From: Candidatus Bathyarchaeota archaeon | GTDB lineage: Archaea; Thermoproteota; Bathyarchaeia; 40CM-2-53-6; FEN-987 | Assembly (NCBI GenBank): GCA_023247835.1 | Contig: JAHFFU010000073.1 | Location: forward strand, 1-5,956 | Direction of reading: 5' to 3' | DNA length: 5,956 bases | In this document: one piece after another, positions 1 through 5,956 of the stretch | How the letters are laid out: each line of letters begins with the position of its first letter | Numbering within the stretch: the stretch's first letter is position 1 | Notes under the pieces: model-generated | What the model was told of the DNA's origin: nothing | The model's database searches: none | Seen by the model: only the letters and a program-made list of their open reading frames with translations | Translations under genes and position numbers: made by a program

Positions 1-507
1 CTTCTCTATCTGCATTTCAGCTTCGTCTTGTTAGGCACGGGGTTACTTATCGATGGCATATCAAATATCGTTGCTCTGTTTTCACAACTCTATCGAGGAT
101 TGCTGTTTCTTTACGCCTTGGGCTACACGATAAACTTCATCGCACAACTGATAGCCTATGGACTCTTGGTCTTCGTCTACCTTCAACAGACCCGAAACGC
201 CGCCGTTCAATTCACAACGGCGACTGCAGTGCTCTCGGCACTCTTCTTTGAACGGAACGCATTTGCTGAATTGATTCTCATCGTACTGCTCGTCTACATC
301 GCGTTTCAAACAGCGATGAACTACGGAGTAAACAAAACGACAAACTCGCTGCTCGTCTTCAGTGCATTCGTCTCACTTGCGTTGGCCCACTTCTTCTTTC
401 TCATGTTTATCCTATTTCCAATCTTCTTTCCGATGGCGCATATTGCTCAACTATTTGGGTTCCTATTGCTGCTAGCGATGCTGCTCCGGGTGAATCAACC
501 ATCGTGA
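1..507 (+). CDS. Multi-pass membrane protein, 5' end outside the window
   Basis: The reading frame is open from the first base, so this is most likely the C-terminal 168 residues of a longer protein. A TTG at 28 could be read as a start, but the residues before it (LLYLHFSFV) continue the same hydrophobic helix, which argues against it. Roughly five hydrophobic segments are visible, separated by short polar loops (LQQTRN, NYGVNKTTNS), and the protein ends LLLLAMLLRVNQPS. There are no catalytic or cofactor motifs. The stop codon overlaps the start of the winged-helix gene (GTGA), so the two are probably translated together, and the membrane protein may sense a signal for, or be controlled by, that regulator (inference). 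I do not recognise a named family. Confidence 0.75.
   Translation, partial: LLYLHFSFVLLGTGLLIDGISNIVALFSQLYRGLLFLYALGYTINFIAQLIAYGLLVFVYLQQTRNAAVQFTTATAVLSALFFERNAFAELILIVLLVYIAFQTAMNYGVNKTTNSLLVFSAFVSLALAHFFFLMFILFPIFFPMAHIAQLFGFLLLLAMLLRVNQPS
489..493 (+). promoter_or_regulatory. Ribosome binding site of the winged-helix gene
   Basis: GGTGA, part of the archaeal GGAGGTGA consensus, lies 10 nt before the GTG start at 504 and inside the end of the preceding membrane-protein gene. It supports the GTG as the true start and translational coupling of the two genes. Confidence 0.5.
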
Positions 508-815
508 TTCCGAGCGAACCAGGGTTAGCGGCCAAGCCTGCCGCAAAATATCGATCGCAATTCCGAATATACGTAGACATTATGCGTGTGATTCAACGTG
601 AGAATAACGAAGCGAAACCTACAAGGATCCTGTACGGGGCTAACCTCTCTCATGACAGATTAATCAAATACCTTGAGGAACTGAAGACCTTGGGAGTGAT
701 ACAGGAGAGCGGAACCGATGACAAACTCTACGGCTTAACCCAGAAAGGCATCGAGTTCATGAACAATTTCAGAAAGGTAGAATCCTTCGCCGAAGCCTTC
801 GGATTCAAAATATGA
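504..815 (+). CDS. Archaeal winged-helix regulator, HTH_45/COG3432 type
   Basis: This 103-residue protein has the layout of the small archaeal winged-helix DNA-binding proteins (HTH_45, COG3432). A first helix (about residues 19-32, IYVDIMRVIQ) is followed by the helix-turn-helix (about 38-62) containing KPTRILYGANLSHDRLIKYL. A wing (about 63-80) ends in LYGLTQKGIEF, and an amphipathic C-terminal helix (about 82-98) may dimerise. The RILYGANLS and LTQKG blocks are the family hallmarks, as I remember them. It starts with GTG overlapping the previous stop by 4 nt, with GGTGA upstream. It is predicted to be a cytoplasmic transcription regulator; the upstream membrane gene is its natural partner or target. 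The ligand is unknown. Confidence 0.85.
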   Translation: MIPSEPGLAAKPAAKYRSQFRIYVDIMRVIQRENNEAKPTRILYGANLSHDRLIKYLEELKTLGVIQESGTDDKLYGLTQKGIEFMNNFRKVESFAEAFGFKI

Positions 816-831
816 CGTTCCCTGATCGCTG

Positions 832-841
832 CCCTTATTAT
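832..841 (+). promoter_or_regulatory. Possible TATA element before lipA
   Basis: The 81-nt gap between the winged-helix gene and lipA contains the AT-rich stretch CTTATTATC. As an archaeal TATA box it would give a leader of about 30-35 nt. No Shine-Dalgarno sequence is visible before the lipA ATG. The match is weak, and lipA may instead be read through from upstream. Confidence 0.2.
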
Positions 842-896
842 CAAAGTAAAACCCAATAGCTTAGAGTAACGCTACCTATCACAATCGGGTTTCACA

Positions 897-1829
897 ATGC
901 CACGATACACAGGCCACGTGCAGATTCAACAAACGTCCAGCATCAGGAAGCCCGAATGGTTACGCGTACGGTACCCAACTGGCGAAAATTACGAGAAAAT
1001 TAAGACAATTCTTGGGCAGCACAACCTGCATACGGTATGCGAGGAGGCCCACTGTCCCAACGTCGCTGAGTGCTGGGGGGGTGGGACGGCCACTTTCATG
1101 CTCATGGGGGACACCTGCACTCGAGGTTGCCGATTTTGCATGGTTAAGAGTGGAAACCCACATGGCCAACTTGATGTTTTCGAGCCCCTAAACGTCGCCC
1201 AGACTATCGCAGATCTAGGCCTGAGGTATGTTGTGATAACCTCCGTCGACCGCGACGATCTCCCAGATGGAGGCGCCGCTCATTTCGCCGCCACAATCAA
1301 AGCCATCAAGCAACACGATCCCGAAGTGATCGTTGAGGTGCTCATTCCAGACTTCCAAGGAAACATCAATGACGTTAGAAAGATCGTAGATGCAGGTCCT
1401 GAAGTGATAGCTCACAACATTGAGACCACGGAACCTCTGACGCCCAGAGTTCGCGACCCGAGAGCAACCTATACGCAATCGCTCAAAGTGCTCATGGCCA
1501 TCAAAGAATTGAATCCGAAGGGCTATTCGAAGTCTTCAATCATGCTCGGCTTGGGCGAGACTGAGAGCGATCTGCACAAAACCATGCAAGATCTGCGGGA
1601 AGTAGATGTGGACATTCTAACTCTAGGACAATATCTCCGACCTTCCAAAGGACATATTCCCGTGAGCGAATACGTGTCGCCTGAGCGCTTCGAATACTAC
1701 AAACGGTTGGCTGAGCAATTGGGATTTCTTTACGTAGCCTCCGGACCCTTAGTTCGGAGCTCATACAGGGCCGGAGAATTCTTTGTGGAAGCATTGGTCC
1801 AGAAGAATAGGTCAGCGGCCCCCAATTGA
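897..1829 (+). CDS. lipA: Lipoyl synthase (radical SAM)
   Basis: LipA inserts two sulfur atoms at C6 and C8 of the octanoyl group bound to the lipoyl domain of 2-oxoacid dehydrogenase E2 subunits or glycine cleavage H protein. At 310 residues it has the usual family length. The auxiliary [4Fe-4S] cluster motif CX4CX5C is at C48, C53 and C59 (CEEAHCPNVAEC). The radical SAM motif CX3CX2C is at C74, C78 and C81. Further blocks are VITSVDRDDLPDGGA (about 114-128), EVLIPDF, HNIETT, MLGLGE, LTLGQYLRPS and the C-terminal RSSY (287-290), whose serine is a ligand to the auxiliary cluster. It is therefore complete and probably active. The ATG start fits the family N-terminus, although no Shine-Dalgarno is seen. 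No octanoyltransferase (lipB) or lipoate ligase gene is adjacent. Its likely client, a 2-oxoacid dehydrogenase, is encoded 2.4 kb downstream. Confidence 0.98.
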   Translation: MPRYTGHVQIQQTSSIRKPEWLRVRYPTGENYEKIKTILGQHNLHTVCEEAHCPNVAECWGGGTATFMLMGDTCTRGCRFCMVKSGNPHGQLDVFEPLNVAQTIADLGLRYVVITSVDRDDLPDGGAAHFAATIKAIKQHDPEVIVEVLIPDFQGNINDVRKIVDAGPEVIAHNIETTEPLTPRVRDPRATYTQSLKVLMAIKELNPKGYSKSSIMLGLGETESDLHKTMQDLREVDVDILTLGQYLRPSKGHIPVSEYVSPERFEYYKRLAEQLGFLYVASGPLVRSSYRAGEFFVEALVQKNRSAAPN

Positions 1830-1848
1830 CGTTGTCAGTGAATGGCTG

Positions 1849-2148
1849 CTACTTCCACGTGACCCTGAGCAGGTTTGCGATGGCAAGCGCTTCACCCAGA
1901 TTCACGAAGAACATGTAGGCAAACGCCTGCTCCGCAATACTCGCTGCGGTTGGAGACATGAAGAGAAATAGCCACAAACCTATGATAGCCAAGTTCGTAA
2001 TGACAAAGAGCAGACCGAAAAGCAAGAGGCCCATTGTAAAAGGCGATGCAATGTCCCGGTAGTTCTGAACGTAGACGTACAGTAGAGCGGAAGTCATGGC
2101 TATGTTAACAAAAGCAACCAATGCACTGGCCCAGACCCATATTGCCAT
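1849..2148 (-). CDS. Small three-helix membrane protein
   Basis: This 99-residue hydrophobic protein has three predicted transmembrane helices at about 6-27, 36-62 and 68-94. The first loop reads QNYRDIASPFTMGLLLF, a pattern I recall from small archaeal membrane proteins of unknown function that often sit next to winged-helix regulators; I cannot give a family number. Its C-terminus (NLLRVTWK) resembles the LLRV end of the membrane protein at the left edge. The ATG start is preceded by a strong GAGGTGA site. It lies 35 nt downstream of the minus-strand winged-helix gene and is probably in its operon. Its stop is 19 nt from the lipA stop, so the two genes converge. The function is unknown; a sensor or modulator for the regulator is inference. 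Confidence 0.85.
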   Translation of the reverse strand: MAIWVWASALVAFVNIAMTSALLYVYVQNYRDIASPFTMGLLLFGLLFVITNLAIIGLWLFLFMSPTAASIAEQAFAYMFFVNLGEALAIANLLRVTWK

Positions 2149-2154
2149 GCTCTC

Positions 2155-2161
2155 TCACCTC
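2155..2161 (-). promoter_or_regulatory. Strong ribosome binding site, small membrane protein
   Basis: On the minus strand GAGGTGA, a seven-base match to the archaeal anti-Shine-Dalgarno complement GGAGGTGA, stands 6 nt before the ATG. It fixes that start and is the best ribosome binding site in the window, which contrasts with the absent site at its operon partner. Confidence 0.75.
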
Positions 2162-2183
2162 TCCATGCCAGCGGATTCCTTAT

Positions 2184-2489
2184 CTACTTTTTTCCAGTTT
2201 GACTCCAAATCTGCAAGAACAATTCCCAAGCTTCTTCAAGCCTCGGGGTGAGAAAATAGAGGGCTCCGTAGGCTCCTTCCTGTGAAATAACCAAGAGCTG
2301 ATTCTCCTGCAAAACCTTCAGGTGGTGTTGTATCGTGCGGTAGTCTACGTTCAAACGTTCGGCGAGCTGATTTGCATTCAGGGGGCGTTCTTTCAAAATC
2401 GAGATTATTCTTCCGCGCATGGGGCCGCCTCTAGTACCACCGATTAGGTACCAGAGAACACGTTTCAAGTGAACGTCTGGATACGCCAA
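2184..2489 (-). CDS. ArsR-like winged-helix transcription regulator
   Basis: This 101-residue protein has an ArsR-type (HTH_20-like) winged helix. Residues 12-24 (LWYLIGGTRGGPM) open the fold. RGRIISILKERPLNANQLAE and RLNVDYRTIQHHLKVL form the helix-turn-helix, with the recognition helix at about 50-61. LYFLTPRLEE ends the wing. No cysteine is present, so metal sensing of the classical ArsR type is unlikely. The only possible upstream start is TTG at 2489; a second TTG lies seven codons in, and an in-frame TGA closes the frame 24 nt further upstream. No Shine-Dalgarno is seen, which suggests a leaderless or short-leader transcript. It is first in a two-gene minus-strand operon with the three-helix membrane protein and is divergent from the sorted surface protein, so it may control both directions (inference). 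Confidence 0.87.
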   Translation of the reverse strand: MAYPDVHLKRVLWYLIGGTRGGPMRGRIISILKERPLNANQLAERLNVDYRTIQHHLKVLQENQLLVISQEGAYGALYFLTPRLEEAWELFLQIWSQTGKK

Positions 2490-2522
2490 GTGTTGTTTGC
2501 TCCGCGGAACCCCTCATCAATT

Positions 2523-2541
2523 CTGAACAGATACTGAAGAG
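2523..2541. promoter_or_regulatory. Operator-like repeats in the divergent region
   Basis: Within the 117-bp gap between the divergent genes, CTGAACAG and CTGAAGAG (7 of 8 identical) start exactly 11 bp apart, about one helical turn. The first copy also overlaps the small inverted repeat TCTG-AA-CAGA (2522-2531). This could be a binding site for the adjacent winged-helix protein. The elements are short and could be chance. Confidence 0.25.
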
Positions 2542-2555
2542 ATTTCCTATTGAAT

Positions 2556-2575
2556 CGGAAAAACCGCTTAATATG
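2556..2575 (+). promoter_or_regulatory. Promoter of the sorted surface protein
   Basis: TTAATATG at 2568-2575 is a TATA-like element preceded by a purine-rich stretch (CGGAAAAACCG) in the place of the archaeal BRE. Transcription would start about 2595-2600, close to the ATG at 2607. This agrees with the lack of a clear Shine-Dalgarno there. CGG-N5-CCG (2556-2566) forms a small inverted repeat over the BRE and could be a repressor site. Confidence 0.5.
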
Positions 2576-2606
2576 AAAAACTATCGCTGTTGCCGTTTGA
2601 TCAAAA

Positions 2607-3479
2607 ATGCATGTAACGAAAAGAACTCTAGCCAAGCTTCCAATCGCACTTCTAGTTCTGGCAGTGCTCGTCAGTGCAACGGCTCCAATTGCTCATGCCG
2701 ATACGGCGCCGAGCCTAGCGATCCTATCGCCGGGCGGACTACTCAACAATAGTACGGTCGTCCCACCCAGTTTCGTTGTATCCTTCGCAGTTTTCAACTT
2801 CGCTTTCGTCAATCCAGGCATTGTGGGGCAGACAAACCAGCCTAACATGGGCCATATGCACGTTTTCCTTGACGGTGTATACAGAACTCTTTGGGCACAA
2901 CCGGAAGGGATACCTTTCAACGATGTCCCCGCAGGACAGCACACGATAAAGCTGCAACTCGTTAACCACAACCATACTCCACTCAACCCAGACATCAGCG
3001 CCTCCGTGACGGTTCAGGTGACTTCCGCTCCGCAAGGTGCACCAGGCCTTACTATACTCTCACCCGCGGGCGCCTTGAACTCAGCAACAACCGTCGGTCC
3101 CTCCTTCGTCGCATCGTTTGCAGTGAACAACTTCTACCCAACCGACCCGATCGGCCAACCTAAAGCGCTAAACACAGGACACGTACACATCATCCTTGAC
3201 GGATCATACTACGGACTATGGACCACTCTAAACCCCATTCCGTTCATAGAACTCATGCCAGGAAGTCACACGATCAAGCTACAACTAGTTAACACTGACC
3301 ACAGCCCCCTCAGTCCAGATGTCTCACAGACCATCACAGTAACTGTGAGCGGATCGAGCTCAACAACTTCCCCAGCAGCCATACCCGGCTTTCCAATAGA
3401 AGCAGTACTAGTGGGTGCTCTGCTCTGGTTAGGAGCCTCGGCGATACTGAGAAAACGAAAATCCAAGGAAGCAAATTAG
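2607..3479 (+). CDS. Secreted two-domain protein with PGF-like C-terminal sorting signal
   Basis: This 290-residue protein is predicted to be exported. It has a basic N-terminus (KRTLAK), a hydrophobic core (11-23) and a cleavage site AHA|DT after residue 31. The mature part is two tandem copies of a roughly 105-residue domain (about 35-139 and 146-248), probably beta-rich. Each holds GHxHxxLDG (82-90, 191-199) and HTIKLQLVN followed by H-T/S-PL (112-126, 221-235), giving four conserved histidines per copy. The pattern resembles what I remember of DUF4399/DUF6130-like domains; metal binding is inference. A Ser/Thr-rich spacer leads to IPGFP (259-263), a hydrophobic helix (264-281) and RKRKSK, the tripartite layout of archaeosortase targets. 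The next gene is an archaeosortase, its likely processing enzyme. The exact function is unknown. Confidence 0.88.
   Translation: MHVTKRTLAKLPIALLVLAVLVSATAPIAHADTAPSLAILSPGGLLNNSTVVPPSFVVSFAVFNFAFVNPGIVGQTNQPNMGHMHVFLDGVYRTLWAQPEGIPFNDVPAGQHTIKLQLVNHNHTPLNPDISASVTVQVTSAPQGAPGLTILSPAGALNSATTVGPSFVASFAVNNFYPTDPIGQPKALNTGHVHIILDGSYYGLWTTLNPIPFIELMPGSHTIKLQLVNTDHSPLSPDVSQTITVTVSGSSSTTSPAAIPGFPIEAVLVGALLWLGASAILRKRKSKEAN
2709..3350 (+). repeat. Tandem duplicated domain inside the surface protein
   Basis: Two in-frame copies (about 2709-3023 and 3042-3350) encode matching domains. Shared blocks in order are ILSP.G.LN, PSFV.SFAV.NF, GH.H..LDG, LW....IPF, PG.HTIKLQLVN and H.PL.PD. HTIKLQLVN is identical at protein level, but the copies are clearly diverged, so this is an old internal duplication and not a recent DNA repeat. 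Confidence 0.9.
3381..3461 (+). other. C-terminal sorting signal (IPGFP-TM-RKRK)
   Basis: The signal encodes residues 259-285 of the surface protein: the motif IPGFP, a hydrophobic helix beginning IEAVLVGALLWLGA, and the basic cluster RKRK. It parallels PGF-CTERM, which is processed by ArtA in haloarchaea and linked there to lipid anchoring. The variant with a second proline (PGFP) suggests a separate specificity class. Confidence 0.8.
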
Positions 3480-3505
3480 CCGGAGACGTAAACGTGCCCC
3501 GGCTA
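3477..3505 (+). promoter_or_regulatory. Hairpin over the sortase start, followed by a T run
   Basis: TAGCCGG (3477-3483) pairs perfectly with CCGGCTA (3499-3505) around a 15-nt loop. The left arm holds the surface-protein stop codon and half of the GGAG Shine-Dalgarno (3482-3485) of the sortase. The GTG start (3494) is in the loop. Five T residues follow at 3511-3515. It could limit sortase translation or terminate part of the transcripts, so that the abundant substrate is made in excess over the enzyme (inference). Confidence 0.5.
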
Positions 3506-4048
3506 CCCCATTTTTCTCTCACTACAATTCGATCCTGTATGATCATGCACAGAACGATTCGCTTAGTAGCATATCTGACATTGGTTGCGGTTCTGTCGCT
3601 TCTGCTGATTTATGTGCCGAATTATTATTCGCTCCAGATCTGGACCGCAGAGAATGTAGCAAGCATCCTTCGCAGCGTAGGTTACGACGTGGCTATACAA
3701 AGCCAAGGCAGCGATGTGTTGGTTAACGGTTTTCAGCTCACCCGTGAATGCACAGGTGTTCAAGCACTGGTCCCCGTTTCCATTTTCTTCACCCTCATGC
3801 CAAGGGTCCGCAAGGCCAGAAGAGTTCTGGCAGTTGCGGCCGCATTATTGAGTCTGTATGTTGCGAATCTGACGAGAATTGTCTTGGAGCTTGTCCTGTA
3901 CTCACATCAATTACTTCCCTGGACCTTAATACATGATTATTTCGGGTTTGGGTTCAGCGCCCTAGCGATAATCCCAATATTATTCTTGGGAAGCAAAATC
4001 ACGAACTCGAGCGGCGTCGATGTCATTACTAGAAGTTTCACCTTCTAG
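3494..4048 (+). CDS. Compact archaeosortase (exosortase/archaeosortase family)
   Basis: Archaeosortases are membrane cysteine transpeptidase-like enzymes that cleave C-terminal sorting signals outside the membrane. This 184-residue protein shows the family signature: ECTG with catalytic Cys86 in RECTGVQAL, then Arg128 in VANLTRIVLE, then His147 in LIHDYFGFGFS. The third position is Arg in ArtA and commonly His in exosortases. Hydrophobic segments lie at about 24-41, 89-102, 109-124 and 149-167. It is shorter than ArtA and has little beyond the core. The GTG start is supported by GGAG 8 nt upstream; ATG codons at 3539 and 3545 are alternatives that would still keep the first helix. It lies 14 nt after its presumed target gene, so a dedicated one-to-one pair is likely. 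I do not assign it to a named subtype. Confidence 0.92.
   Translation: MPRLPHFSLTTIRSCMIMHRTIRLVAYLTLVAVLSLLLIYVPNYYSLQIWTAENVASILRSVGYDVAIQSQGSDVLVNGFQLTRECTGVQALVPVSIFFTLMPRVRKARRVLAVAAALLSLYVANLTRIVLELVLYSHQLLPWTLIHDYFGFGFSALAIIPILFLGSKITNSSGVDVITRSFTF
4029..4048 (+). terminator. Hairpin ending at the sortase stop codon
   Basis: CTAGAAG (4029-4035) and CTTCTAG (4042-4048) form a perfect 7-bp stem with a 6-nt loop, ending on the stop codon. A second stem, CAGATG/CATCTG (4055-4060 and 4064-4069, loop CTC), follows 6 nt later. There is no T run after either, so they may be mRNA 3'-end structures and not intrinsic terminators. Confidence 0.3.
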
Positions 4049-4228
4049 AGATTACAGATGCTCCATCTGAATTAGAGCAGACGCTTCAAGCTCCGAAAAC
4101 CTAAGGACGCAAAGCAGCATCTCTCACGGCAGCTTTGTATTCAAGATGCGTCGCTGGAAGGGCAAGATTTACAAGCGTTGGTCCGAGTTTCCCGATAGTT
4201 TCGAACAGCTCCCCAGGGGCCCCAAATT
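4049..4228. other. Intergenic region between sortase and E1-alpha
   Basis: I see no convincing gene or RNA in these 180 bp. They hold the CAGATG/CATCTG hairpin near the left end and a palindromic CCCCAGGGGCCCC at 4211-4223, five nt before the E1-alpha TTG. On the minus strand, a frame open from 4253 down to a stop at 4101-4103 has protein-like composition but no start codon until near its end. GATTTACAA (4167-4175) is the only TATA-like stretch for a dehydrogenase promoter, and it is weak. Confidence 0.5.
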
Positions 4229-5311
4229 TTGACTGTCGAGCTATTGCAGGTAATCAAGCCCACAGGCGAGGTTGTCGAAGAGATAGAGCCTCAAATTTCG
4301 AAGGATGAGTTGAGAAGACTCTACAGACTAATGGTTCTGGTAAGAAATCTGGACGTTCGTGGGCTTCAACTTCAACGTCAAGGCAGGATTGGATTCTTCA
4401 TAGGTTCACTTGGGCAGGAAGCATGCCAAATCGGAAGCGCCTATGCTCTAAAACCTGAAGATTGGGTCTTTCCAGCATACCGGGAAATCGGAGCTGCGCT
4501 CCTTCGCGGAGCAACACTGAAACAAGTGATGAACCAATACTTCTCCAATGCGGAAGATCTGGAGAAAGGAAGGCAAATAACGAACCTCTACGGCTTGAAA
4601 TCCATAAACTTCGTCATAGGCTCAGCACCCATCGCCACACAGATTCCCCATGCAGTGGGCGCAGCGCTGGCTGCAAAGATCAGAGGAGATCCCATCGTCA
4701 CCCTGGTCTACTTCGGGGACGGTGCAACTTCAGAGAACGATTTCCACGCAGGTATGAACTTCGCAGGTGTCTTCAGGACTCCGACGATATTCTTCTGCCA
4801 GAATAATCATTGGGCTATATCTCTCCCAGTTGAAAGACAGACCAGCTCTGAAACCATCGCCATCAAAGCTAAAGCGTATGGTTTCGACGGAGTCCGAGTC
4901 GATGGAAACGACGTTCTAGCCGTTTATCGCACAGTAGAAGATGCCGTGGAGAAAGCTCGCAAAGGCGGAGGCCCCACCCTGATTGAGGCTGTGACCTACC
5001 GGATGGGGCCACACTCGTCGTCTGATGATCCAACGCGTTACAGGACTAAGGAGGAGCTTGAGGAATGGCAGAAGAGAGATCCCATCACAAGATTTCGCAG
5101 ATACTTGGAAAAGAAGCGAATCTGGAGCGAATCAGATGAGAAGAAGGCGCAAGAAGACACCAACCATGAAATAGACGAAGCTATCGCGTATGCAGAGAAG
5201 ATCCCGCGTCCAGCTCTTGAAACACTCTTCACAGACGTATACTCCGACATGCCTTGGCACCTCGAAGAACAACTGCGCCAACTACAAGAAGAGAAAGGCC
5301 GGAAGGAGTAG
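4229..5311 (+). CDS. 2-oxoacid dehydrogenase E1 subunit alpha (branched-chain/pyruvate type)
   Basis: E1-alpha with E1-beta forms the thiamine diphosphate enzyme that decarboxylates a 2-oxoacid and passes the acyl group to lipoyl-E2. At 360 residues it has the family length. The diphosphate-binding motif runs from GDG (163-165) to NN (192-193). Other conserved blocks are LGQEA (61-65), FPAYREIGAALLRG (81-94), AVGAALA, the active-site loop RMGPHSSSDDPTRYR with His262, and the C-terminal PWHLEEQ (343-349). The loop and the PWHL end look closer to bacterial/thermophile 2-oxoisovalerate (BCKDH) E1-alpha than to classical PdhA, as I remember those sequences. The substrate may be branched-chain 2-oxoacids, pyruvate or both. 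The TTG start gives a plausible N-terminus; the Shine-Dalgarno is unclear and a second TTG at 4244 is possible. E1-beta follows directly. Confidence 0.95.
   Translation: MTVELLQVIKPTGEVVEEIEPQISKDELRRLYRLMVLVRNLDVRGLQLQRQGRIGFFIGSLGQEACQIGSAYALKPEDWVFPAYREIGAALLRGATLKQVMNQYFSNAEDLEKGRQITNLYGLKSINFVIGSAPIATQIPHAVGAALAAKIRGDPIVTLVYFGDGATSENDFHAGMNFAGVFRTPTIFFCQNNHWAISLPVERQTSSETIAIKAKAYGFDGVRVDGNDVLAVYRTVEDAVEKARKGGGPTLIEAVTYRMGPHSSSDDPTRYRTKEELEEWQKRDPITRFRRYLEKKRIWSESDEKKAQEDTNHEIDEAIAYAEKIPRPALETLFTDVYSDMPWHLEEQLRQLQEEKGRKE
5303..5308 (+). promoter_or_regulatory. Ribosome binding site of E1-beta
   Basis: AAGGAG within the last codons of E1-alpha precedes two adjacent ATG codons. Its spacing is 3 nt to the first (5312) and 6 nt to the second (5315), which favours the second. 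It also couples E1-beta translation to E1-alpha. Confidence 0.65.
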
Positions 5312-5314
5312 ATG

Positions 5315-5956
5315 ATGACAACCCTCAACATCGTCCAAGCTGTGAACCGCACGCTCCGAGATGAGATGAAACGTAACGACAAAATAGTGTTGCTTGGCGA
5401 GGATGTAGGTGTCAATGGAGGCGTTTTCCGCGCAACAGAGGGCCTGCTTCAGGAGTATGGGCCTAACCGCGTGATCGACACGCCGCTCGCTGAGTCTGGA
5501 ATTATCGGCGTTTCAATCGGAATGGCTCTCTATGGTTTGAAGCCTGTCGCGGAAATCCAGTTCCTGGATTTCATCTATCCCGGGTTCGACCAGATCCAAA
5601 GTGAACTCGCTAAGTTCAGGTATCGCTCTGGAGGCCAATTCACCGTGCCGGTTGTGATCCGAACGCCATATGGGGGTGGCATTAGAGGTAGTCATTACCA
5701 TTCGCAAAGCACTGAAGCTTTCTTCGTTCACACACCAGGACTGAAGGTTATCATTCCTGCAACACCATACGACACGAAGGGGCTCCTCACGGCGGCACTC
5801 CGGGATCCTGACCCTGTAATGTTCCTCGAACCCAAGAAGATCTACAGAACCGTCAGAGGAGACGTGCCCGATGAGGATTACACGGTTCCAATAGGCAAGG
5901 CCAATGTCGCCCGTGACGGAGAAGACGTTACAATCTTCGCCTACGGCGCAATGTTC
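5315..5956 (+). CDS. 2-oxoacid dehydrogenase E1 subunit beta, 3' end outside the window
   Basis: The frame stays open to the last base and gives 214 residues of a protein usually about 325 long, so roughly the last third is missing. It has the transketolase pyrimidine-binding fold. Visible blocks are LLGEDVG (26-32), DTPLAESGI with the cofactor-activating Glu60, [21 protein letters not shown], and HSQSTEAFF with His129, the catalytic histidine of the HSQS motif. [13 protein letters not shown] and EPKKIYR follow. The beginning of the C-terminal transketolase domain ([19 protein letters not shown]) is present. The start is ATG at 5315 because of Shine-Dalgarno spacing; ATG at 5312 directly abuts the E1-alpha stop and adds one Met. 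It is co-transcribed with E1-alpha. E2 and E3 genes are expected beyond the right edge (inference). The sequence resembles BCKDH E1-beta more than PdhB, from memory. Confidence 0.95.

Follow-up and report, generated by a model that had tools for sequence, protein, structure and literature searches.

Does a secreted archaeal protein with a sorting-type tail, encoded immediately before an archaeosortase-family enzyme, form a dedicated pair with that enzyme, and do the two fall within the systems already named? The question is raised by a 5,956-nt stretch of DNA from a Candidatus Bathyarchaeota archaeon (contig JAHFFU010000073.1, hereafter the window), for which a preliminary description had proposed a one-to-one system with a signal and an enzyme of a new subtype. 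We read the two genes as a co-directional substrate/archaeosortase couple in which the enzyme is predicted to cut near the motif IPGFP and to anchor the surface protein, a reading to which we assign a probability of roughly 0.7.

The surface protein and the enzyme beside it

The first gene of the pair (2607..3479, + strand) is an open reading frame for a secreted surface protein of 290 aa with two DUF4399/DUF6130 repeats (Ig/FnIII-like). Read by eye, residues 1-31 (2607..2699, + strand) form an N-terminal signal peptide that ends in ...IAHA, before DT; the structural model has a helix over it at residues 11-23, in a low-confidence stretch. At the other end, the IPGFP sorting motif (residues 259-263; 3381..3395, + strand), evident in the sequence, in the tail alignment and in a match to the NCBI Loki-CTERM model NF033507 (residues 259-287), is followed two residues on by Glu265 and then by a hydrophobic helix and basic tail (3396..3461, + strand; predicted-structure helix 264-289), with RKRK at 3450-3461 and a C-terminus that reads ...SPAAIPGFPIEAVLVGALLWLGASAILRKRKSKEAN. 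The enzyme gene is adjacent and co-directional, starting 14 nt after the surface ORF stops, so that the arrangement first described agrees with both the coordinates and the profile cut-offs.

The second gene (3494..4048, + strand, GTG start) encodes an archaeosortase-family enzyme of 184 aa that passes TIGR04178 (37.1 bits, cut-off 23) and PF09721 (43.4 bits, cut-off 25.7) and has an AF2 model with a pLDDT of 85.6. GGAG, a possible ribosome-binding site read from the sequence (3482..3485, + strand), lies 8 nt upstream of the GTG; the start is not certain, because the relatives P0004 and P0005 start ~24 residues further in and in-frame ATGs stand at residues 16 and 18. The motifs named in the preliminary description were all located: ECTG (3746..3757, + strand) with the putative nucleophile Cys86 (3749-3751), NLTR (3866..3877, + strand) with Arg128, and, from the alignment, HDY (3932..3940, + strand) with the putative catalytic His147. 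C86, R128 and H147, which we take to be the catalytic set of the family, are invariant across 125 aligned enzymes, as are T87, G88 and N125.

Among named subtypes there is no good home for this enzyme. Its best-scoring subtype models, heimdallarchaeosortase NF045528 (32.8 vs a cut-off of 130), exosortase A TIGR03109 (23.8 vs 208), pacearchaeosortase NF033505 (23.5 vs 80) and archaeosortase H NF041736 (23.1 vs 200), all leave it far below threshold, and the ArtA model TIGR04125 (cut-off 75 bits) gave no match to it at E<=1. In an NCBI profile scan of the window enzyme and ten relatives, 0 of 11 reached the cut-off of any named subtype, which bears out the suggestion that the enzyme lies outside them. 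A single-sequence search returned 5 relatives besides the window's own enzyme, and a 20-row profile returned 457 enzyme matches at E<=1e-10; among the 120 of 457 listed, those with names are called exosortase/archaeosortase family protein or similar. The sequence HDYFGF is found in the window enzyme and in P0002-P0005, and the other 15 aligned rows have HYP, HGP or HEP. In a quick-method tree of 83 rows (40 of 119 newly listed proteins, P0002-P0006, 37 genome enzymes and the window's), the window enzyme and P0002-P0005 form their own group (SH-aLRT 96) on a branch of 2.75 changes per column. This group lies apart from the enzymes of other Bathyarchaeia and of Methanomethylicus-type archaea, at an exact position that is unsure given the long branches. 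On sequence grounds, the enzyme appears to be a divergent branch that no named NCBI subtype fits, near the ~200-residue archaeosortases of Bathyarchaeia and Methanomethylicus-type archaea, for which the signal core is I-P-[GSA]-[FY]-P. Its length, once offered as a subtype mark, has to be dropped as such: all 35 complete related enzymes in the genomes span 176-240 aa, so 184 aa is ordinary.

The proposal that the tail is distinct from those described fared no better. The tail passes NF033507 (21.6 bits vs a cut-off of 19.9), the only NCBIfam model that matches the surface protein at E<=1 (the PGF-CTERM models give no match at that threshold), and the signal is therefore not wholly undescribed. 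The likeness to Loki-CTERM, compared at the tail only, is partial: among 11 tailed proteins scanned, 5 pass the model, 5 fall below its cut-off and 1 has no match at E<=0.1. No open-licence paper naming Loki-CTERM, heimosortase or similar was found; among the matches listed, the word archaeosortase was absent from open-licence literature on Asgard archaea, Verstraetearchaeota or Bathyarchaeia, and a paper found under Bathyarchaeota and archaeosortase concerns, in the passage available, ANME archaea (PMC5244752).

Within the surface-protein family the tail behaves as a suffix, since 10 of 41 homologues (P0007-P0015, P0017) end in I[PA]GFP[IV]EAV, a helix and basic residues, and the motif is lacking in the rest that can be read to their ends; the remaining 31 have plain C-terminal helices or a cut-off C-terminus. 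P0010 and P0011 have IAGFP instead of IPGFP, and P0007 shares 98% identity with the window's protein. The untailed homologues mean that the helix might suffice as an anchor, and they lend something to the idea that the surface protein is no more than a single-pass protein anchored by its C-terminus, whose IPGFP caps the helix while the enzyme acts elsewhere. That idea is very improbable: the motif is kept in precisely the sub-group to which the pair belongs, related enzymes have unrelated neighbors with the same C-terminal motif, and enzyme and tail co-occur across genomes.

In Bathyarchaeia (the class of G001), a DUF4399 protein is found at E<=1e-6 in 7 of 256 genomes searched, and the motif in 0 of those 7 C-termini. 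An untailed homologue in a genome that has the sortase had been named in advance as evidence against the pairing. A weak form of this exists in G001, one of those seven genomes, which has a tail-less DUF4399 protein and an archaeosortase, but the G001 enzyme falls in a different clade and adjoins a tailed partner of its own. In two archaea, proteins that look cupredoxin-like by eye (L001:4156-4536 and L002:105-1562) adjoin untailed DUF4399 proteins. A literature search on DUF4399/DUF6130 gave nothing relevant by title.

Enzymes, tails and partners across genomes

The pattern I-P-x-x-P-x-E is common to ten aligned tails, four of them from tested Bathyarchaeia genomes, where they lie beside their enzymes. 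The second proline, suggested at the outset as a mark of the signal, is invariant in this alignment, and the core I-P-[GSA]-[FY]-P recurs in nearly every true tail read at genome loci; the Glu is often missing where genomes have many tails (G237, G239, G240).

Enzyme and tail go together. Enzyme profile A1 matches 42 of the 256 Bathyarchaeia genomes at E<=1e-3. The tail profile at E<=0.1 reaches 78 of them, many aligned to the hydrophobic part only; at E<=1e-3 it reaches 25, 19 with an A1 match, and at E<=1e-4 it reaches 21, of which 18 have an A1 match (Fisher 1.8e-13, a value that ignores kinship). The three exceptions at 1e-4 (G235, G238, G239) have other proteins, from open frames of 194 to 474 residues, that score above the archaeosortase signature cut-off. 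In the class of G406 (Methanomethylicus-type genomes; we infer the naming Methanomethylicus/Verstraetearchaeota for G386 and G460), the enzyme is present in 4 of 40 genomes and a strong tail in the same 4 (Fisher 1.1e-5, again ignoring kinship), with a strong tail in 0 of the 36 enzyme-less genomes (best E 0.025). No tail of this class went into the tail alignment; its enzyme profile held rows from its own four genomes, which were first found with A1, a profile without such rows. Across the phylum, A1 matches 9 of 398 genomes at E<=1e-8. In both classes, then, IPGFP-type tails and related enzymes occur together.

Physical proximity was read at 47 loci around profile matches, of which 40 (in 39 genomes) hold short enzymes, 5 of the 40 being truncated where the contig stops; at the remaining 7 the protein is longer or more distantly related, or no matching open frame was found. 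A tailed gene stands directly beside the enzyme in 9 of the 40 and within 1.3 kb in 11; for the other 29, no such tail was found within up to 4-5 kb on each side, a span often cut by contig ends. Within the related family, an enzyme gene often has one substrate gene as its neighbor, and the outer part of that substrate varies by lineage, with DUF4399, CBM56-bearing and desulfoferrodoxin-like partners. In G061, G341, G406 and G460 a tailed partner of ~370 aa is convergent with the enzyme gene and overlaps it by 7 to 14 nt, and in G219 such a partner lies 11 nt away; Pfam gives only CBM_56 (CBM56) in the two scanned (L165, L098). By eye, this ~370-aa protein is transglutaminase-like (L165:4489-5595, L166:4501-5607, L167:4527-5645, L098:4479-5591). 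The order in G001, G253 and G257 is co-directional, with a desulfoferrodoxin-like partner (PF01880) first and a gap of 36-39 nt. G236 has the same order and gap, with only a 53-aa open frame for the tailed partner (L109:3764-3925), the rest of which may be broken or start further upstream. The window pair shares this co-directional order, at a gap of 14 nt. Elsewhere, the tailed partner in G386 is 1.2 kb from the enzyme, and in G027 a Vgb-lyase-like protein with the weaker motif IPGYANKE is 0.8 kb away. Secreted desulfoferrodoxin-like proteins with an IP[GSA]YP tail stand directly before an archaeosortase at L105:3483-3953, L108:3472-3939 and L111:4215-4670, and these are possibly surface-anchored superoxide reductase-like domains.

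Whether adjacency also means exclusivity depends on the number of targets per genome. The four enzyme genomes of the class of G406 (G341, G386, G406, G460) have exactly one strong tail each, with overlapping genes in three and 1.2 kb between them in one; single strong tails also occur in G061, in G219 and, far from the enzyme, in G215. Proteins above the TIGR04178 cut-off number one each in G386, G406, G460, G341 and G215 and three in G061. Among Bathyarchaeia, tails run from one per genome to at least six (G224). In the loci read, where only some of the matches were covered, the motif was present in 6 of 6 loci in G224, 5 of 5 in G253, 5 of 6 in G237 and 4 of 4 in G239. G001 and G257 have two tails each and G253 five, one of them beside the enzyme in each case, so a tail adjacent to the enzyme need not be its sole target. 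The one-to-one system first proposed therefore stands in part: pairs, mostly side by side, do recur in relatives, but in several Bathyarchaeia the tails number four to six or more, and together with the extra tails of G001, G253 and G257 these show that one-to-one is not a rule.

Such genomes (G224, G253, G237, G239), the place of one among several G253 tails beside its enzyme, and the common signal core would also suit an enzyme that serves many IPGFP-type proteins of its host, the neighbor being one of several and "dedicated" an accident of proximity. We regard this as rather unlikely, given that the enzymes of G224, G253 and G237 fall in another clade than the window's (that of G239 is outside the tree) and that all four genomes with the enzyme in the class of G406 have a single strong tail. 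By analogy with these relatives, the window enzyme would mainly serve the substrate next to it. The pair probably exists in a second copy, because the enzyme P0004 and the tailed surface protein P0008 come from the same source, each with a longest contig of 5793 bases, presumably the same contig. For the tailed surface protein P0009 (longest contig 79,189), no enzyme match on such a contig appeared in the single-sequence search or among the 120 of 457 profile matches listed, a negative that this listing makes weak.

The four-gene block and the empty site in a close relative

The pair belongs to a block of four genes (1838..4157, as delimited by blastn) that also holds, on the - strand, a 99-aa membrane protein (1849..2148, an ORF) and an ArsR-type winged-helix regulator (2184..2489; PF01022, E 2.4e-7); the surface protein and archaeosortase are on the + strand. 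The membrane protein matched no NCBIfam family at E<=1 and no Pfam family at E<=1e-5. The close relative G023 is without this 2.3-kb block at the same lipA/pdhA junction (L192; G023:C4, 9912-9980). There, window positions 1-1837 align by blastn with L192 11813-9981 (79%) and 4158-5953 with 9911-8113 (89%), and weak homology may resume from about 4121. Gene order is as in the window (upstream membrane ORF 78%, Sso10a-type wHTH 83%, LipA 89%, E1-alpha 92%, E1-beta 95%), with E1-alpha following LipA after about 150 nt. A LipA match at E<=1e-60 occurs in just 6 of the 256 genomes searched in the class of G001, and among these the next match after G023 is at 57%. LipA and the shared gene order are the grounds on which we place the window's host near G023, itself a genome of that class.

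The window places lipoyl synthase (897-1829) near pyruvate dehydrogenase E1 alpha and beta (4229-5956), and in G023 (L192) the E1 genes run on, by eye, into E2 and dihydrolipoamide dehydrogenase. Two membrane protein/winged-helix regulator pairs flank lipA, one ArsR-type (1849-2489, - strand) and one Sso10a-type (1-815, + strand).

Neither gain nor loss of the block is proved, because its GC (0.496) equals that of the flanks (0.490 and 0.513) and its ends share no repeat, a repeat search of the block having found internal repeats only. The same features are what would be expected if the block were ancestral and lost in G023, a history with a real chance of being right, somewhat short of even. 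The scarcity of close enzyme relatives and the distance of the window enzyme from G023's own (32% identity) nevertheless make us lean towards gain by the window's lineage, and the rarity in Bathyarchaeia of the surface family, with its motif-less C-termini, also argues against loss. G023 has elsewhere a short-family archaeosortase and, where a contig begins, a VPGFPIESI tail, as well as a second protein above the archaeosortase signature cut-off. The window's host may accordingly carry more than one system, and another enzyme could act on the window's surface protein.

A broader picture can be offered as tentative and, in its entirety, less likely than not. The genes might form a cassette-like surface-display module with no subtype name as yet (HDYFGF enzyme, I[PA]GFP[IV]EAV tail), added together with the regulator and the small membrane protein at the junction of lipA with the pyruvate dehydrogenase genes and running beside the host's inherited archaeosortase without crossing to its targets; elsewhere among Bathyarchaeia and Methanomethylicus-type archaea the same logic would recur, the outer parts being exchangeable (Ig-like, CBM56-bearing, desulfoferrodoxin-like).

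Known sorting systems and the proposed anchoring route

One of the closest known systems is that of ArtA of Haloferax volcanii, which, in the passages available, cuts and lipidates PGF-tailed proteins and processes a diverse set of them; both cleavage and lipid labeling require the enzyme as well as genes for lipid synthesis, and the authors put forward, as a speculative model, a thioester that a lipid amine resolves (PMC7157517). The window pair resembles the ArtA/PGF-CTERM system of those passages in having a motif, helix and basic tail, an archaeal enzyme with an active-site Cys and PGF within the motif (PMC7157517). It differs in lacking a match to TIGR04125 or the PGF-CTERM models, in its second proline and, set against the diverse targets reported there for ArtA, in having a partner next door (PMC7157517).

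The two genes probably make up a working archaeosortase/substrate couple. The signal peptide would export the surface protein, and the C-terminal helix would hold it in the membrane until the neighboring archaeosortase cuts at or near IPGFP via Cys86, with Arg128 and His147; the new C-terminus would then be joined to a lipid of the membrane, or to an acceptor of a similar kind, so that the two Ig-like domains stay tethered to the cell's exterior. Cleavage, thioester and lipid attachment in the window pair are here modeled on characterized ArtA.

Dedicated sorting pairs as such are already known. Where a genome has a single target of the rhombosortase/GlyGly-CTERM system, enzyme and sole target are, in the part of the source available, neighboring genes (PMC3237569), and most sortases are described, in the passage at hand, as serving few targets or one, often encoded nearby (PMC8416519). 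The window resembles the rhombosortase case in its adjacent enzyme and substrate genes; rhombosortase is of the rhomboid family, unlike the archaeosortase here, which belongs to an unrelated one, and adjacency alone is what is seen in the window.

Archaeosortase experiments, in the passages available, concern Haloferax ArtA, an enzyme of many proteins. Minimal one-to-one pairs are clean enzyme/substrate couples, in which specificity is readable from sequence and can be tested by tail swaps, and the empty site in G023 makes gain or loss of the module directly testable. Set beside the absence of any named NCBI subtype for the enzymes scanned, this enzyme family points to a route by which surface proteins may be anchored in Bathyarchaeia.
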